64,000 bases of DNA from Candidatus Bipolaricaulis sibiricus. Its GTDB lineage: Bacteria > Bipolaricaulota > Bipolaricaulia > Bipolaricaulales > Bipolaricaulaceae. Shown here in pieces: positions 11,980-23,567 of this stretch. The notes beneath the pieces are model-generated. The model had not been told where the DNA came from. It did not search any database and saw only the letters and a list, made by a program, of their open reading frames with translations. The position numbers and the translations under genes were made by a program. Location of the stretch: NCBI GenBank assembly GCA_004102645.1, contig CP034928.1:124001-188000 (forward strand). Direction: 5' to 3'. The first letter of the stretch is position 1, and the number at the start of each line of letters is the position of its first letter.

Positions 11980-12007
11980 TCCGTCATCCGTGGCCCGTGA
12001 TCCGTCG
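11980..12007 (+). repeat. heptad array, four TCCGTNR-type units
   Basis: Four 7-bp units in exact register (TCCGTCA, TCCGTGG, CCCGTGA, TCCGTCG) lie in the gap between korA and korB. I found no inverted partner nearby. It is the same family as the arrays at 17928, 20561, 21034 and 23466. Confidence 0.8.
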
Positions 12008-16046: not shown

Positions 16047-16934
16047 TCACACCCCCGTGGAAACCAGTCGCCCGGCTGAACGTTCGTCTGCTACCAGGGC
16101 AGCCACTGCCGGCTCGTCGGCGCCCATCGCCCACGCCAGAAGCTGTCCGAGGTAGAGCACAGGCAGGCTCGGCGCCCCTGCCGGCCGGCGCTCGTCGAGG
16201 TTGAACTGGCACAGAGGGCACGTCGTGACGACAACGTCGGCCCCGTTGCTTCGCGCCGAGCGGAGGATCCGCTCCACTCGGTGGCCGACGATATCCGTTC
16301 GCCCCACCGTGAGGTAGGCGCCGCAGCACTCCATGCGCTCCGGGAACGCCACCGGCGTTCCGCCGAGCGCCTCGACGACGCGTTCCATGACCTCCGGCCG
16401 GTCCGGGTCATCCACCGCGAACTCCCGTGGCCGCAGGAGCACGCACCCGTAGTAGGTCGCGACCTTCAGCCCGTCCAAGGTTCGCTTGACCCGGGCGGCC
16501 AGCTTCTCGTACCCCACCTCGTCCCGAAGCAGGGTCAGGAGGTGGACGACCTCGATCCCGCCGCGGAAGTCGTCCTCGGTGTCCATGAACGCGTTGATTC
16601 GCTGGAGACGCTCCGGCTCCTGGACGAACCGCGCCGAGCGGGTGAGCGTGCCGTAGCACATCGCGCACAGGGTGAGGACGCGCCTCTCGCCCATCCCCTG
16701 GACGCGGACGAGGTTCCGCACCGGCCCCACGTGGCGCATGAGGTCGTCCTGGGCGAGCGAGTACACCGTGCCGCAGCAGTTCCAGCGCGGGATCTCCGCG
16801 ATCTCGTACCCGAGGAGGGCAAGCGCGTGGAGCGTGCCCGCCTCGTCGGCCCGAGCCTGATCCTTCATCGCACAGCCAGGGAAGTACGCCAGCCGCGATG
16901 GGTGACGCGTGACGGGTAACGGGTTAGCTGGCAT
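16047..16934 (-). CDS. hdrB: HdrB-like CCG-domain subunit
   Basis: This is a subunit of about 295 residues with two cysteine-rich CCG domains: NCCGTVYSL (C53, C54) with LCAMCYG, and ECCGAYLTV with TTCPLCQFN. These bind the unusual noncubane [4Fe-4S] clusters of heterodisulfide reductase. The first 13 residues (MPANPLPVTRHPS) are translated from a GTGACGN repeat array, and the conserved protein starts at RLAYFPGCAMK. The start overlaps the end of an S23-family gene. Only one HdrB is present and it sits with fumarate reductase subunits, so it may serve fumarate reduction rather than a heterodisulfide. Confidence 0.85.
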   Translation of the reverse strand: MPANPLPVTRHPSRLAYFPGCAMKDQARADEAGTLHALALLGYEIAEIPRWNCCGTVYSLAQDDLMRHVGPVRNLVRVQGMGERRVLTLCAMCYGTLTRSARFVQEPERLQRINAFMDTEDDFRGGIEVVHLLTLLRDEVGYEKLAARVKRTLDGLKVATYYGCVLLRPREFAVDDPDRPEVMERVVEALGGTPVAFPERMECCGAYLTVGRTDIVGHRVERILRSARSNGADVVVTTCPLCQFNLDERRPAGAPSLPVLYLGQLLAWAMGADEPAVAALVADERSAGRLVSTGV

Positions 16935-17349
16935 GCACGCCTCCCGTGGTCACGGTCCCCGTTGCCGACCGGGGCCGCTTCAGGCTGCGGATGAGCCCGA
17001 GGAGCATTCGTCGTGTCCTCTCCATGGTCACTTCGACTTCCTTGTCTTGCACGTTGTGCAGATCCTTTGCCAGCAAGAGCTGCGTCTCCATCTCGGCGAG
17101 TGAACCCAGTGCATGGTACAGGAACTGGATGAACTCCTTGCGCGAACTGCCCGCCGCTCCCTCTGCGATGTTGCTCGGGACCGAGACGGCGGCGCGCCGG
17201 AGCTGCGCGGTCAGGCCGTAGGCCTCCTCTTGGGGAACGGTCGCGGACAGCCTGTACACCTCTCCGGCGAGGCGCATCGCCCCGTTCCCCACGTCCAGGT
17301 CCTTATGCGTTCGGGTTTCACTCATCACGCGTCACCCATCACTCGTCAC
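16895..17349. mobile_element. putative S23-gene element bounded by inverted 7-bp arrays (GTGACGN family)
   Basis: Left array 16895-16922, plus strand: GCGATGG, GTGACGC, GTGACGG, GTAACGG. Right array 17315-17349 on the minus strand: GTGACGA, GTGATGG, GTGACGC, GTGATGA, GTGAAAC. The two arms share a perfect 16-bp inverted repeat (16897-16912 with 17325-17340). They enclose exactly one gene, a four-helix-bundle protein of the 23S-intervening-sequence family. The unit lies between hdrC and hdrB and supplies the first codons of hdrB. Mobility is inference. Confidence 0.6.
16924..17325 (-). CDS. four-helix-bundle protein, S23 / 23S rRNA intervening-sequence family (copy 1)
   Basis: This 133-residue helical protein has the family signature YGLTAQLRRAAVSVPSNIAE followed by GSSRKEFIQFLYHALGSLAE and a C-terminal helix RRMLLGLIRSLKRP. 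The family is found in intervening sequences inside 23S rRNA genes, as Avd-like accessory proteins of diversity-generating retroelements, and as stray genes of unknown role. The ATG at 17325 lies within the right repeat array, and the stop overlaps the hdrB start. It has no evident link with redox chemistry and looks like a passenger in the operon. Confidence 0.85.
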   Translation of the reverse strand: MSETRTHKDLDVGNGAMRLAGEVYRLSATVPQEEAYGLTAQLRRAAVSVPSNIAEGAAGSSRKEFIQFLYHALGSLAEMETQLLLAKDLHNVQDKEVEVTMERTRRMLLGLIRSLKRPRSATGTVTTGGVHAS

Positions 17350-17355
17350 CGCGTT

Positions 17356-17751
17356 TCACGGTGTGAGCTTCCTGAATGCCCCCACGAGGGCGATCTGGGG
17401 GCAGGGTCGGTCCGGCCGCACCGGCGCCGGCGAGATCCCCTTCCGCAGGGCCAGGATCCGCAGCGCCTCCATCGTCTTCGCGATGTCCACGCCCTTTGGG
17501 CACCGCACCCCGCACGCCAGGCACGACGCGCAGACCCACGGGGCGGAGAGCGTGAGCGCCGACTCGTCGCCGAGCTGGACGAGGCGCAACACCTGGTTCG
17601 GGAGGGCGTCCATGTAGTCCGCGAACGGGCACCCCGCGGAGCACTTCCCGCACTGGTAGCAGGCGTACGGGTTCTCACCCGACAGTTCCTCCACCCGGCG
17701 GGCGAACGGCGCGTCGAGCCGATCTCGGGACAGGTCTAGTTCGCTAGCCAT
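17356..17751 (-). CDS. hdrC: HdrC-like iron-sulfur subunit
   Basis: This 131-residue protein has two [4Fe-4S] motifs in a helical ferredoxin fold, CYQCGKCSAGCP at 31-42 and CASCLACGVRCP at 74-85. Length and layout match HdrC, the link between HdrA and HdrB. It starts at ATG 17751, overlapping the end of the maturation protease gene by 16 bp. An S23 element separates it from hdrB, although hdrC and hdrB are normally adjacent. That supports the idea that the S23 unit was inserted later. Confidence 0.88.
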   Translation of the reverse strand: MASELDLSRDRLDAPFARRVEELSGENPYACYQCGKCSAGCPFADYMDALPNQVLRLVQLGDESALTLSAPWVCASCLACGVRCPKGVDIAKTMEALRILALRKGISPAPVRPDRPCPQIALVGAFRKLTP

Positions 17752-18200
17752 CGGTTCACCTCCGCCACCGCCGCGGGCACGGCCCGGGCTACCTGCGGCG
17801 AGAGCCCCCGCCGGAACGGGAGCACAGCCTCCACGCCGATCGCGACGGCCCATGTCTCGGGAACGGCAAGCCCGGCCATCTCCAGCGCCCCAAGTGCCTG
17901 AGCCAGGCCCATCCCGTGGACCCAGGAACCGTGGTCCGTGATCCGTGGTCCGTGGTCCGTGAACAGGGGGAGCAGGGCCACCTCGCCCACCGGAAGCGCC
18001 GGGCAGGCGTCGACGACGAGTGCCCGCTCGAACCCGACGAGGGCCTGGGCGAGGGGGAGCCCACCACGGATCGCCTCCCACACCTCGACCCCCGGCTGCG
18101 GGCCCAGGGCCTGGACCACCGCCGGCCCCACGCCATCGTCGGCCCGGTCCGGGTTCCCCAGCGCCACGATCACCGTCCTAGCGGGAGATCCGGCGATCAA
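17736..18200 (-). CDS. hydrogenase maturation protease, interrupted by an in-frame repeat array
   Basis: The product (HycI/FrhD type, about 154 residues) should clip the C-terminal tail of the NiFe large subunit after nickel insertion. It shows VIVALGNPDRADDGVGPAV (nickel-binding acidic residue), VVDACPALP (second ligand) and WVHGMGLAQAL (histidine region). Residues about 80-91 (TDHGPRITDHGS) are translated from a TCCGTGR heptad array, apparently inserted in the loop just before the histidine motif without breaking the frame. The start at 18200 overlaps the end of the large-subunit gene; GTG at 18173, just after that stop, is an alternative. Confidence 0.82.
   Translation of the reverse strand: MIAGSPARTVIVALGNPDRADDGVGPAVVQALGPQPGVEVWEAIRGGLPLAQALVGFERALVVDACPALPVGEVALLPLFTDHGPRITDHGSWVHGMGLAQALGALEMAGLAVPETWAVAIGVEAVLPFRRGLSPQVARAVPAAVAEVNRWLAN
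17928..17962 (+). repeat. heptad array inside the maturation protease gene
   Basis: Five 7-bp units in register (ACCGTGG, TCCGTGA, TCCGTGG, TCCGTGG, TCCGTGA) lie within the coding sequence and are read in frame as a TDHGPRITDHGS-like peptide. It is the clearest intragenic copy of this repeat family in the window. Confidence 0.85.
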
Positions 18201-19629: not shown

Positions 19630-20639
19630 CCATTACCCCCTTTGCGCCGGACGTAGGTCGGCAGGGAGTACTTGTAGAACGTGCCCAGGGGGTCGACGAG
19701 GGCGTCGAGGAGCTTGTCCTCCGCCGCGAACGCCCCCGGTCCCTCCTCCCCCGCCCGGGCGAGGGACCCGAGCGCCGAGATCATCGCCAGCCCGGGATCA
19801 CCCGCGTTCGGGGTCGGGCCGACGCAGCCCGTGCACGGCATCCCCGCCTTCGGGCACGCCGCCCCGCACCCGCCACGGGTCACCGGGCCCAGGCAGATCA
19901 TCCCCTGGTCGAGGAGGCACACCTCCGGGTCGGGGAGGGCTTCGTGGGGGCGGACGACCTTCGTGAGCCTGCGCTCCTCGCGCGTGCGCGGGCACTCCTC
20001 GCACAGGGCCTTGTCGTGGGCGAACACGTGGCCCGGGTGGGGGAGGTCCCCGGAGAGGAGGGCCGCGAAGAAGGGACCGATGAGGGACGGCATCGGTGGG
20101 CAGCCGGGGACGACGTAGTCCACGGCGATCTCGTCCGCGAGGGCCTTCGCCTCGGGGAGGAGCTCCGGGGGCGCGTCCTCCGCCTCCCCCCCCGGCGGGG
20201 GGGCCGGGCGGAACCCGTTTCTGGCCACGCGGCGGAGGAGCTGGTCCCGGGGCGAGAGATTGGCGAGGCCAGGCACGCCGCCCTGGTAGGCACAGGCCCC
20301 GAACGCGACCACGAGCTGCGACTTCTCCCGGAGGAGGTGCACCATCTCCACGTTCTCCTCCGTGCGCAGCGTCCCGTTGACGAGCGTGGCGGCGATCGAC
20401 CGTGGGGGGAACGCCTCCACCTCCGAGCGCTTCGTGTCCACGAGCGCGGGCCAGAACGCGATCTCGACCTGCGCGAGGACGTCGAGGAGCGCCGGCCCGA
20501 GCTCGAGGAACGACACGTCGCACCCCCCGCAGCCCCCCGTCCAGTACACCGCGATCTTGGGCCGTGATCCGCGATCCGTGGTCCGTGGTCCGTATCCCGT
20601 GGACTTCGGCAGCCCCGTGTTCGGCCGACTAGCGCTCAT
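19626..20639 (-). CDS. mvhG: [NiFe]-hydrogenase small subunit, MvhG type
   Basis: This 337-residue iron-sulfur subunit begins its conserved part at KIAVYWTGGCGGCDVSF, with proximal-cluster cysteines in GGCGGCD, FGACAYQGG and GGCGAACP and further ones in MPCTGCVG. There is no Tat signal, as expected for a cytosolic group 3 enzyme. The first roughly 27 residues include GYGPRTTDRGSRP, translated from a six-unit heptad array. The gene overlaps mvhA by 4 bp and starts within 11 bp of the end of an S23 gene. It transfers electrons from the NiFe site to MvhD. Confidence 0.9.
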   Translation of the reverse strand: MSASRPNTGLPKSTGYGPRTTDRGSRPKIAVYWTGGCGGCDVSFLELGPALLDVLAQVEIAFWPALVDTKRSEVEAFPPRSIAATLVNGTLRTEENVEMVHLLREKSQLVVAFGACAYQGGVPGLANLSPRDQLLRRVARNGFRPAPPPGGEAEDAPPELLPEAKALADEIAVDYVVPGCPPMPSLIGPFFAALLSGDLPHPGHVFAHDKALCEECPRTREERRLTKVVRPHEALPDPEVCLLDQGMICLGPVTRGGCGAACPKAGMPCTGCVGPTPNAGDPGLAMISALGSLARAGEEGPGAFAAEDKLLDALVDPLGTFYKYSLPTYVRRKGGNG

Positions 20640-21096
20640 CCTTGGGCTCCTTCTTCAGATGTCGAATCAGGCCGTAGATCACCATTCTCACCCGCTCCAC
20701 GTCGGCCGTGATGCCGCTTTCTCCCATCCACCCAAGCTTCTCTGCGAGCACGAGTTGAGTGTCCAACTCAGCCAGCGAGCCGAGCGCGTGGTGAAGGAAC
20801 TGAGCGAACTCCTTCCGCGACGCTCGCGCTGCCCCTTCGGCGATGTTGCTGGGGACCGACACGGCGGCCCTCCGCATCTGAGCCGTGAGGCCGTAGCGTT
20901 CCTGGTCGGGAAGAGCCTCCGTCACCTTGTACACCTTCTGGGCGAGGAGCACTCCCTCCTTCCACGCGTCCAGATCCCGATGGGTTCTAGGCGTCAACGC
21001 GGATCCCCCTCTGCCGCTCCGCAACCACCGACTCACGGTGTTCGGACGACGGACCCCGGTTGACGGACAACGGATCACGCTCCACGGACAACGGGC
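20561..21096. mobile_element. putative S23-gene element bounded by inverted 7-bp arrays (TCCGTGR family)
   Basis: Left array 20561-20602, plus strand, six units in register: GCCGTGA, TCCGCGA, TCCGTGG, TCCGTGG, TCCGTAT, CCCGTGG. Right array 21034-21096 has nine units in register and opposite orientation: CACGGTG, TTCGGAC, GACGGAC, CCCGGTT, GACGGAC, AACGGAT, CACGCTC, CACGGAC, AACGGGC. They enclose a second S23-family gene. The left array is read as part of the MvhG N-terminus and the right array as the C-terminal tail of MvhD. The architecture equals that of 16895-17349 with a different heptad. Confidence 0.6.
20629..20997 (-). CDS. four-helix-bundle protein, S23 family (copy 2)
   Basis: This protein of about 122 residues clearly resembles copy 1: THRDLDAW at the start, YGLTAQMRRAAVSVPSNIAE, ASRKEFAQFLHHALGSLAEL and a closing GLIRHLKKE helix. 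TTG at 20997 is chosen because the family's conserved start (TPRTHRDLD) follows it and an AGAGGGGG stretch precedes it; GTG at 21036 is an alternative inside the repeat array. It overlaps the end of mvhD and ends at the start of mvhG. Like copy 1 it separates genes that are normally adjacent. Confidence 0.83.
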   Translation of the reverse strand: MTPRTHRDLDAWKEGVLLAQKVYKVTEALPDQERYGLTAQMRRAAVSVPSNIAEGAARASRKEFAQFLHHALGSLAELDTQLVLAEKLGWMGESGITADVERVRMVIYGLIRHLKKEPKDER

Positions 21097-21490: not shown

Positions 21491-23564
21491 GGCCCACCTC
21501 GAGGGGCTCGCCGGCGAGGGCGGCCCGGATCATCCGCTTGACCTGCTCGTCGGTCTGGTTCCTCATCCGCATCGCCCCCGACGGGCAGGCGGCGACGCAC
21601 GTCCCGCACCCCTCGCAGAGGAGCTCGTTCACGTGCGCCACGTCGCCGGGGGTGATCGCGCCGTACGGGCACTGCGGCACGCACACCGCGCACCCCGAGC
21701 AGAGGTCCTCGTCCACCTCCGCCACCTCCGGGGAGTGGGTGAGGGTCGGCGCGGCGAGGATCGCGATCGCCTTCGCCGCCGCGCCGGAGCCCTGGGCCAC
21801 CGCCTCCGGGATGTCCTTCGGGCCGTGGGCGGCGCCGGCGAGGAAGATCCCCCCCGTGAGGGCCTCCAGCGGGCGGAGCTTGGGGTGGGCCTCCTTGAGG
21901 AATCCCTCCCCGCCGCACGCGATGTGGAGCTTGCGGGCCAGTTCCTCCGTTCCCGCCGAGGGAACCATCGCCTGGGCGAGGACCACGAGGTCCGCCGCGA
22001 CCTCGATCCGCTTTCCGGTGAGCGTGTCCACGCCCCACACCACGACCTTGTCCCCGTCCCGGAACACCTTGGCCACCTTGCCCCGCAGGTAGAGGATCCG
22101 TTCGTCCTCCATCGCCCGCACGACGAACTCCTCGTACTCCTTCCCTCCCGCGCGGATGTCGATGTAGAACACATACGCCGTTCCATCGTGCACGTTGTGG
22201 CGGTACAGGAGCGCGTGCTTGGCGGTGTACATGCAGCAGATCTTCGAGCAGTACGACTTGTGGAGCTCGGGGTCGCGCGACCCGGAGCACTGGATGAACA
22301 CGACCTCCTTCGGGACCTTCCCGTCCGAGGGGCGGCGCACCTCGCCCCGCGTTGGCCCGCCCGCGGACAGGATCCGCTCGAACTCCAGGCCGTCGATCAC
22401 ATCGGGCACGGTCCCGTGGCCGTACTCCGCCATCGCCTCCTTCCCGTAGAGGTCGTACCCGGTGGCGACGACGATCGCCGCCACGTCCTCCTCAATCCGC
22501 TCCTCGGCCATGTCGTAGTCGATCGCCCCGACCGTGCACACCTTCGCGCACTCGCTGCAGCGGAGCGGGTTGAGGCCCAGGCAGTTCGCCTCGTCGAGGG
22601 TGTACGAGGACGGAACGGCCTGGGGGAACGGGATGTAGATCGCCGCCCGCTGGGAGAGCCCGCGGTCGAACTCGCTCGGGACGCGAATCGGACAGACCTT
22701 GGCGCAGTCCCCGCACAGGTTGCACTTGTCCGGGTCGACGTACGTCGGCCTCTTGCGGATCACCACGTGGTAGTTCCCGAGGAACCCCGTGACCGAATCG
22801 ACCTCGGAGTAGGTGAGGAGGCGGATCCGCGGGTGGCGGGAGACCTCGACCATCTTCGGGGTGAGGATGCACTGCGAGCAGTCGAGGGTGGGGAACGTCT
22901 CCGACAGCTGGGCCATCCGCCCCCCGATCGACGGGGAGCGCTCGACGAGGAGGACCTCGTACCCGGCGTCTGCGATATCCAGCGCGGCCTGAATCCCGCT
23001 GATCCCCCCGCCGATGACGAGGCACTTGGCGGCGTGGCCGACCTCGACCGGCTCGAGGGGGTGGTTCCCCTTCACCTTCTCCACCATCGCCCGGGTGATG
23101 CGGATCGCCTTGTCCGTGGTCTCCGGGCCATCGTGGACCCACGAGCACCACTCGCGGATGTTCGCGATCTCGAGGAGGTAGGGGTTGAGTCCCGCCTCCT
23201 CCGCGGCGTTGCGGAACGTGGTCTCGTGCATCGAGGGCGAGCACGCGGCGACGACGACCCCGGTGAGCCGGTGTTCCTTGATCGCCTTCTTGATCACGTC
23301 CTGGCCGGGGTCCGAGCACATGTACTCGTGACGGGCGGCGTAGGCGACGCCGGGGTGGCGGGACAGGGCGTCCACGACCCGCGGGACGTCGACCGTGGTC
23401 GCGATGTTCTTCCCGCAGTGGCAGACGAACACGCCGATCCGCGGACCGCGACCCGTAGACCGGAGTCGGTGGTCCGTGGTCCGTGGTCCGGGATTCGAAG
23501 CAGCGAACGGTGCTCGGCTTACGGAAGACGGATCACGGTTTGCGGGCAACGGATCACGGTTCAC
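21483..23564 (-). CDS. hdrA: HdrA, flavin-based electron-bifurcating subunit
   Basis: This is a FAD protein of about 650 conserved residues plus an N-terminal stretch made of repeats. The family core begins RIGVFVCHCGKN near residue 42. Then come the FAD site CLVIGGGISGIQAALDIADA, CNLCGDCAKVCP, CSECAKVCTVGAID, the thioredoxin-reductase-like half with ECA-type cysteines CSGSRD and SYCSKICC, and a C-terminal pair CSGCAVCVPQCP and CEGCGTCVAACP. It takes electrons from MvhADG and splits them between ferredoxin and HdrBC. The GTG at 23564 lies inside a repeat array and overlaps the korC stop. GTG at 23432 would give a start just before VCHCG. Confidence 0.92.
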   Translation of the reverse strand: MNRDPLPANRDPSSVSRAPFAASNPGPRTTDHRLRSTGRGPRIGVFVCHCGKNIATTVDVPRVVDALSRHPGVAYAARHEYMCSDPGQDVIKKAIKEHRLTGVVVAACSPSMHETTFRNAAEEAGLNPYLLEIANIREWCSWVHDGPETTDKAIRITRAMVEKVKGNHPLEPVEVGHAAKCLVIGGGISGIQAALDIADAGYEVLLVERSPSIGGRMAQLSETFPTLDCSQCILTPKMVEVSRHPRIRLLTYSEVDSVTGFLGNYHVVIRKRPTYVDPDKCNLCGDCAKVCPIRVPSEFDRGLSQRAAIYIPFPQAVPSSYTLDEANCLGLNPLRCSECAKVCTVGAIDYDMAEERIEEDVAAIVVATGYDLYGKEAMAEYGHGTVPDVIDGLEFERILSAGGPTRGEVRRPSDGKVPKEVVFIQCSGSRDPELHKSYCSKICCMYTAKHALLYRHNVHDGTAYVFYIDIRAGGKEYEEFVVRAMEDERILYLRGKVAKVFRDGDKVVVWGVDTLTGKRIEVAADLVVLAQAMVPSAGTEELARKLHIACGGEGFLKEAHPKLRPLEALTGGIFLAGAAHGPKDIPEAVAQGSGAAAKAIAILAAPTLTHSPEVAEVDEDLCSGCAVCVPQCPYGAITPGDVAHVNELLCEGCGTCVAACPSGAMRMRNQTDEQVKRMIRAALAGEPLEVGHG

Positions 23565-23567
23565 GGT
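23466..23567. repeat. inverted pair of heptad arrays without an enclosed gene
   Basis: Left arm 23466-23493: TCGGTGG, TCCGTGG, TCCGTGG, TCCGGGA. Right arm 23519-23567, opposite orientation, seven units in register: TTACGGA, AGACGGA, TCACGGT, TTGCGGG, CAACGGA, TCACGGT, TCACGGT. Only 25 bp separate them. The pair covers the first 33 or so codons of hdrA and the last codons of korC. Confidence 0.85.

Follow-up and report, generated by a model that had tools for sequence, protein, structure and literature searches.

An S23 gene between inverted heptad arms at the hdrC-hdrB junction

Analysis of a 64,000-nucleotide stretch of the Candidatus Bipolaricaulis sibiricus genome (the window) revealed an insert at positions 16897-17349, between hdrC and hdrB, consisting of an S23 (PF05635) gene and two inverted arms phased at 7 bp. 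The two arms and all three genes lie on the minus strand. The HdrC-like gene (17356-17752; Fer4_8 match, start read from the sequence) ends with its stop codon at the 5' boundary of the insert. The 5' arm, named in the S23 sense (17318-17360), has the sequence GTGAAACGCG GTGACGA GTGATGG GTGACGC GTGATGA GTGA and is missing from empty sites in relatives; both the stop codon of HdrC and the start codon of S23 fall within it. The S23 gene (16924-17328) is followed by the 3' arm (16897-16924), an inverted copy of the 5' arm, and by the HdrB-like gene (16047-16934; PF02754, CCG), with its N-terminal part extending across the 3' arm. The start codon and the stop codon of the S23 gene are both placed within array units. 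No gene other than S23 was found inside the insert by ORF translation and profile search.

The enclosed gene had been assigned from the letters alone to the four-helix-bundle family of 23S rRNA intervening-sequence proteins, and profile searches agree with this: the ORF matched PF05635 (E 4e-32, 110.9 bits against a cut-off of 33.8), TIGR02436 (E 4e-32, 110.7 bits against a cut-off of 24) and the structure PDB 2gsc (E 2.5e-22). The PDB relatives of this protein, 2gsc and 2rld, contain five chains each, and the S23p of X. campestris is described as a pentamer (PMC4990558).

The first-pass annotation had described a perfect 16-bp inverted repeat between arms in 7-bp register. Exact matching reproduced the repeat, GATGGGTGACGCGTGA at 16897-16912 being the exact reverse complement of 17325-17340, and the match grows to 21 nt if two mismatches are allowed; by simple counting, a perfect 16-bp inverted match is expected by chance about 2e-5 times in ~450 bp. 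The register was recovered as lag-7 segments at 16897-16924 and 17318-17349, and both arrays were also detected by TRF. The description of the heptads as GTGACGN was right as to the 7-bp phasing and incomplete as to the unit, since GTGATGG and GTGATGA units are interspersed with GTGACGN. The suggestion that the hdrB start codon is made of array sequence did not hold: the HdrB ATG (16932-16934) falls within the 3' end of the S23 gene, immediately beyond the array, and the HdrB codons that come from the array are the ~12 following the ATG (NPLPVTRHPS). RNA folding predicts that the arms pair, in a 19-bp stem that closes the S23 ORF (z -3.15). No target-site duplication is evident at hdrC|hdrB, where the arm boundaries are blurred.

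Other S23 genes and arrays in the same genome

Four PF05635 genes were identified in the complete 1.70-Mb genome. The second one in the window (20629-21078, minus strand; PF05635 E 3e-32) lies at the mvhD|mvhG junction, for which relatives provide empty sites. Its 5' arm (21043-21094, minus strand; GTTGTCC GTGGAGC GTGATCC GTTGTCC) is a lag-7 segment, and its inverted 3' arm (20562-20600, minus strand) was found both as a lag-7 segment and by TRF; the arm unit is GTNNTCC, unlike that of the hdr insert. Arms of the GCTTGTG type surround the third gene (C1:583513). The fourth (C1:714121), a relic with one internal stop, lies between a tRNA gene and the SRP RNA gene; copies at this site in relatives have AAGTC-type arms, and the copy in L025 is broken too. 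This tRNA gene/large SRP RNA gene site holds an S23 gene or relic in L003, L025, L028 and L032, the window genome included.

Arrays of another unit, CCGTGRT, occur in the window without an S23 gene. An inverted, MITE-like pair lies at 23439-23567 (no strand assigned; lag-7, folding z -2.3), and a similar array is found ~6 kb from hdrB in G004 (L153). A solo array at 17918-17961 (minus strand; lag-7, TRF and translation) lies in the ORF of a HycI-like hydrogenase protease, which reads through it in frame; coding sequence can therefore carry arrays. A solo CCGTGRT-type array was detected by TRF at 11980-12005 (minus strand; genome pattern match C1:135974-136006).

Empty and filled sites in related genomes

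Comparison of the hdrC-hdrB junction within the family of the window genome, for which 40 genomes were searched and 30 loci read, as the first-pass annotation had proposed, revealed both empty and filled sites, and two further junctions gave the same result. At empty sites the HdrC stop overlaps the HdrB start (ACACC-ATGA-AG...YFPGC), the HdrB orthologues begin ATGAAG..YFPGC, and no heptads are present. At filled sites the order arm, S23, arm lies between the two genes. Because the empty junctions of relatives lack heptads, arms and gene together represent one insert. The insert is absent from nine congeners of the window genome, in which the ATGA overlap is intact. The patchy occupation of this site could also reflect ancestral presence followed by precise loss instead of repeated gain. 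In the hdrC-hdrB loci of G009 and G005 (L114 and L115) the arms and the first S23 codons are kept and the remainder has been lost to other sequence. The replacing sequence is repeat-like with its own inverted ends, which in L114 are CACCGCCGAGACGCAGAGAAGAG ... CTCTGCAAGCTCCGCGCCTCTGCGGTG.

The fumarase alpha|beta junction (fumA|fumB) carries an insert of the hdr type in L221 and L026, is empty in L229, L234, L235, L238 and L245, and in L240 and L241 holds just two inverted arms with a short loop. In the S23 tree the S23s of the fumarase site nest within the hdr-site clade, and the unit is GTGACGN at both sites; thus arms and gene moved together. The mvhD|mvhG junction is filled in three genomes and empty in five. 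A site upstream of a DegT-like aminotransferase (L004, L006, L007, L011, L013, L018, L019 and L030) has received separate S23 clades with three heptad units and represents an insertion hotspot.

Reading frames and orientation of the inserts

An in-frame extension that traverses the 3' arm is present in HdrB (MPANPLPVTRHPSRLAYFPGC) and in MvhG (MSASRPNTGLPKSTGYGPRTTDRGSRPKIAVYW); the latter reads MAAKPKIAVYW at an empty site. In the family of the window genome, stops in the 5' arms number 59 against 6 on the opposite strand, stops in the 3' arms 6 against 79, and 19 of 22 3' arms are stop-free in all frames. Since 7 is not divisible by 3, a unit that bears a stop closes every frame within three units; it is inferred further that the gain or loss of a single unit shifts the frame. 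The first-pass annotation had pictured a small mobile or stem-forming insert that keeps its host operon translated, and the empty and filled sites, the predicted stem and the in-frame downstream extension bear this out, mobility itself being inferred from sequence. A universal rule of an open 3' arm was considered and rejected: bacteria-wide, only 23 of 68 3' arms are stop-free in all frames. The 5' arms remain stop-rich bacteria-wide (352 vs 154).

Among sampled bacterial loci, S23 genes between co-directional neighbours are co-oriented with them 54:3. Annotated S23 inserts on plasmids were found at cmr2|cmr3 with octad arms, at cas6|cas4 with direct arms and at nrdB|nrdA with the S23 antisense. 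The first of these (L219, 1992-2348, Picosynechococcus PCC 7003 plasmid) has octad-like arms (AGGAGATA) and an S23 between cas10/cmr2 and cmr3. The second (L216, 2001-2360, Pseudanabaena plasmid) has long near-perfect arms of GCTAAAA (5') and GCCAAAA (3'), direct and not inverted.

S23 loci across bacteria

Searching a collection of 84,980 species genomes with the S23 alignment yielded at least 551 confirmed relatives, of which the best 80, from many phyla, were kept; this bacteria-wide spread of the layout goes beyond what the first-pass annotation foresaw. Among these best 80, the arms are heptads at 62 loci, octads at 12 and without clear period at 6. Strong lag-7 periodicity was observed in the 150 bp adjoining S23 at 62% of loci upstream and 72% downstream, and lag-8 at 18% and 15%, respectively; lags of 5, 6 and 9 appeared at 0-4% of loci, and periodicity in tiles farther from S23 was ~3%. 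The S23 ORFs found in the family search are mostly stop-free.

Within loci, the inverted match between arms has a median score of 16 against 7 in direct orientation (p 5e-7). The controls, matches with other loci and with a distant flank of the same genome, both have a median of 7 (p 3e-12 for the same-genome flank), and the direct orientation matches better in about 10 of 69 loci. The units vary by locus yet follow S23 relatedness (Mantel r 0.26, 0 of 2000 permutations), also in cross-phylum pairs such as L051/L067 and L061/L070. The period, 7 or 8, clusters on the S23 tree, the forks of which are weakly supported. In the Dysgonomonas loci L054 and L063 the 5' arm is octad (AGTTGACG AGTAAACA) and the 3' arm consists of heptads (CTTGTAT CTCGTAT), possibly a transition between periods. 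In L034 (Saprospiraceae) the array downstream of S23 has a 9-bp period (score 126) and the upstream array a period of 7/14.

Dispersed arrays and the resident S23 type

Both array patterns are scattered over dozens of places in the window genome, with 98 matches to the three-unit CCGTGRT pattern (reversed control 0) and 42 to the GTGACGN pattern (reversed control 1); 20 of 22 arrays inspected there are solo arrays. Association between arrays and S23 was analysed by unit-specific whole-genome counts in 40 related genomes, the S23 type of each genome being assigned by the analyst from the arms. Genomes with the cognate-unit S23 have a median of 81 CCGTGRT pattern matches against 2 elsewhere (Mann-Whitney p 2.5e-4), and for GTGACGN the medians are 93 and 7 (p 2.4e-4). 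Within-genus shuffles gave 63 of 20,000 for CCGTGRT and 2 of 20,000 for GTGACGN. With the S23 arms' own matches crudely subtracted, p was 0.001 and 0.02, respectively. No cross-association of a unit with the non-cognate S23 type was detected in the 40 genomes (p 0.40 and 0.46). As these genomes are related, the p-values are a guide only. Many arrays are also present in some genomes without a detected cognate S23, such as G009 and G037.

The first-pass annotation had stated that arrays unlinked to S23 genes throughout the genome would argue against a single element. Most arrays in the genome are indeed solo; the unit type nevertheless tracks the resident S23 across genomes, and solo arrays that do so fit a REP/RAYT-like arrangement and not an accidental neighbourhood.

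Comparison with known systems

In REP/BIME systems, inverted copies of a repeat lie on both sides of a master gene, RAYT (TnpA_REP); the repeat also occurs dispersed over the genome, and gene and repeat are specific to each other. The S23 gene is likewise flanked by inverted repeats with kin dispersed in the same genome. It differs from RAYT in being a four-helix bundle without a Y1/HUH domain, PF05635 being its sole match in the profile search, and its repeat is a tandem unit of 7 or 8 bp in place of the 20-40 bp REP palindrome. Terminal inverted repeats and clean empty sites are shared with insertion sequences and MITEs; unlike an insertion sequence, the hdr insert has no known transposase, and S23 is its sole gene.

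The 23S intervening sequence (IVS) of Coxiella burnetii has a 28-bp terminal stem, is excised by RNase III and carries two to three tandem GACAGAT heptamers before the S23 start codon (PMC4990558). It resembles the present insert in its S23 family gene, similar size (428 nt), terminal inverted-repeat stem, heptamers by the S23 start and patchy distribution, and it has been called selfish (PMC4990558). Unlike a 23S IVS, the hdr insert is hosted by a protein operon (hdrC/hdrB) and not by an rRNA helix, both of its arms are phased arrays, its units are locus-specific and the genome contains dispersed solo arrays of the cognate unit. In CPR bacteria, insertions in 16S and 23S rRNA also contain S23 genes (PMC11270868).

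Dispersed heptamers are documented in Xanthomonas (GGGAATC) and Nostoc (GGGGAYT) (PMC4692102), in Beggiatoaceae (TAACTGA; PMC4679880) and in the SPADE survey (PMC6344855), and are similar to the present arrays in being tandem 7-bp units, largely intergenic and sometimes inverted. No mention of S23 was found in these three texts, which leave the function open. Heptamers beside one S23 gene are already published (Coxiella, PMC4990558); no text joining S23 genes in general to heptad arrays was found in the open-access literature. Genes annotated 23S_rRNA_IVP are known from cas loci (PMC3936711, PMC10910872), and our S23 inserts at cas6|cas4 (L216) and cmr2|cmr3 (L219) similarly lie within cas operons. 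Insertions such as that in L219 may explain the CRISPR-linked reports; the arms of these S23s suggest insertion into operons generally, not a CRISPR function.

Alternative explanations

The alternative that survives best, although we regard it as unlikely, is that S23 is a passenger without any role in the arrays, which polymerase slippage and template switching at hairpins would produce. The inverted arms would favour the chance copying of a segment that bears a hairpin, and the insert would be a passive intervening sequence that is transferred sporadically. Slippage has been proposed for the over-representation of heptamers (PMC4692102), the Coxiella S23p is seemingly unexpressed, its ORF decaying while the RNA stem persists (PMC4990558), and most arrays of the window genome have no S23. 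This explanation is at odds with the concentration of arrays beside S23 genes but not in other parts of those loci, with the dependence of unit and period on S23 lineage, with the abundance of dispersed arrays of a unit mainly alongside the cognate S23 type and with the largely stop-free S23 ORFs.

Still less probable in our judgement is a host-useful RNA-processing module, in which an RNase III stem between subunit genes tunes expression and S23 acts as regulator. It would account for the sense orientation, the placement between subunit genes (hdrC|hdrB, fumA|fumB, cmr2|cmr3) and the predicted stem. Its difficulty is the very patchy distribution, the nine congeners without the hdr insert included, together with unit sequences that change freely and the use of one site by unrelated S23 clades.

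Avd of diversity-generating retroelements is homologous to PF05635 proteins, and PF05635 is the commonest Pfam near such retroelements (PMC10053308), so S23 might be the Avd-like partner of a reverse transcriptase. We disfavour this strongly: the profile search found no RVT_1 match, and hence no such partner for S23, in the complete window genome, nor in most S23-bearing relatives, and the NCBIfam match is TIGR02436 and not an Avd model. That arrays and S23 merely adjoin, without relation, in intergenic DNA rich in repeats, for which only the dispersal of arrays in the window genome speaks, is refuted by the inverted pairing, cognate units, heptad-free empty sites and bacteria-wide recurrence.

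Proposed element and implications

We consider it probable, on the evidence of sequence comparison, that S23 and its inverted arms constitute a minimal mobile element of ~450-500 bp, in which S23 likely recognises and spreads cognate arrays. The best reading is a chromosomal relative of the S23-bearing 23S rRNA intervening sequences with REP/RAYT-like logic. The arms, their inversion, the empty sites, the cognate unit of each S23 lineage, copying to a new site, co-orientation and dispersed cognate arrays are read directly from the genomes compared; recognition of arrays through S23 binding, cleavage by RNase III, the insertion chemistry and the mechanism of spread are inferred.

The putative element would comprise one S23 gene with two arms, inverted relative to each other and built of tandem units of 7 bp (8 bp elsewhere), and would insert at operon gene junctions in sense orientation. 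Its 5' arm would terminate the upstream ORF and, in the family of the window genome, its stop-free 3' arm would be fused in frame to the next gene, with a new ATG at the S23 stop. The arms are predicted to pair in RNA into a stem that encloses the S23 ORF, like that of S23-bearing 23S rRNA intervening sequences, and RNase III could excise the insert from the operon mRNA at this stem. Because of the predicted stem, together with the stem and heptamers of the Coxiella IVS, the hdr insert is viewed as the operon-borne form of an IVS element. Since the unit follows S23 lineage and solo arrays follow the resident S23 type, recognition by S23 of its own array is suggested; the S23 oligomer would probably recognise the cognate array and, with host enzymes, would probably help both the element and solo arrays to spread, as RAYT relates to dispersed REPs. 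We know of no nuclease or transposase motif and no catalytic site in S23, and with no RVT_1 match in the window genome either, the insertion chemistry is supplied by host functions or else is not known. Bolder, and held only tentatively, is the proposal that S23 proteins generate or mobilise bacterial 7- and 8-bp arrays, an oligomeric four-helix-bundle ring reading a heptad code that is specific to itself and drifts fast.

Descriptions of S23 genes go back to the 1990s, and no function has been assigned to them. Tandem heptamers have been reported to exceed all other intergenic repeats in abundance across a broad range of prokaryotes, with 'no clear clue' on function (PMC6344855). Our analysis ties these two old puzzles by a cognate relation that is directly testable, adds protein operons to rRNA as hosts of IVS elements and offers a plain reason for the emergence of S23 genes as CRISPR-linked in screens. 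If the bolder proposal is true, S23 and its arms would represent one-gene mobile elements of a pan-bacterial class that lacks any recognised nuclease, spreading paired arms and solo arrays, and S23-driven arrays would explain a large part of the heptamer periodicity in bacterial genomes that has had no explanation.
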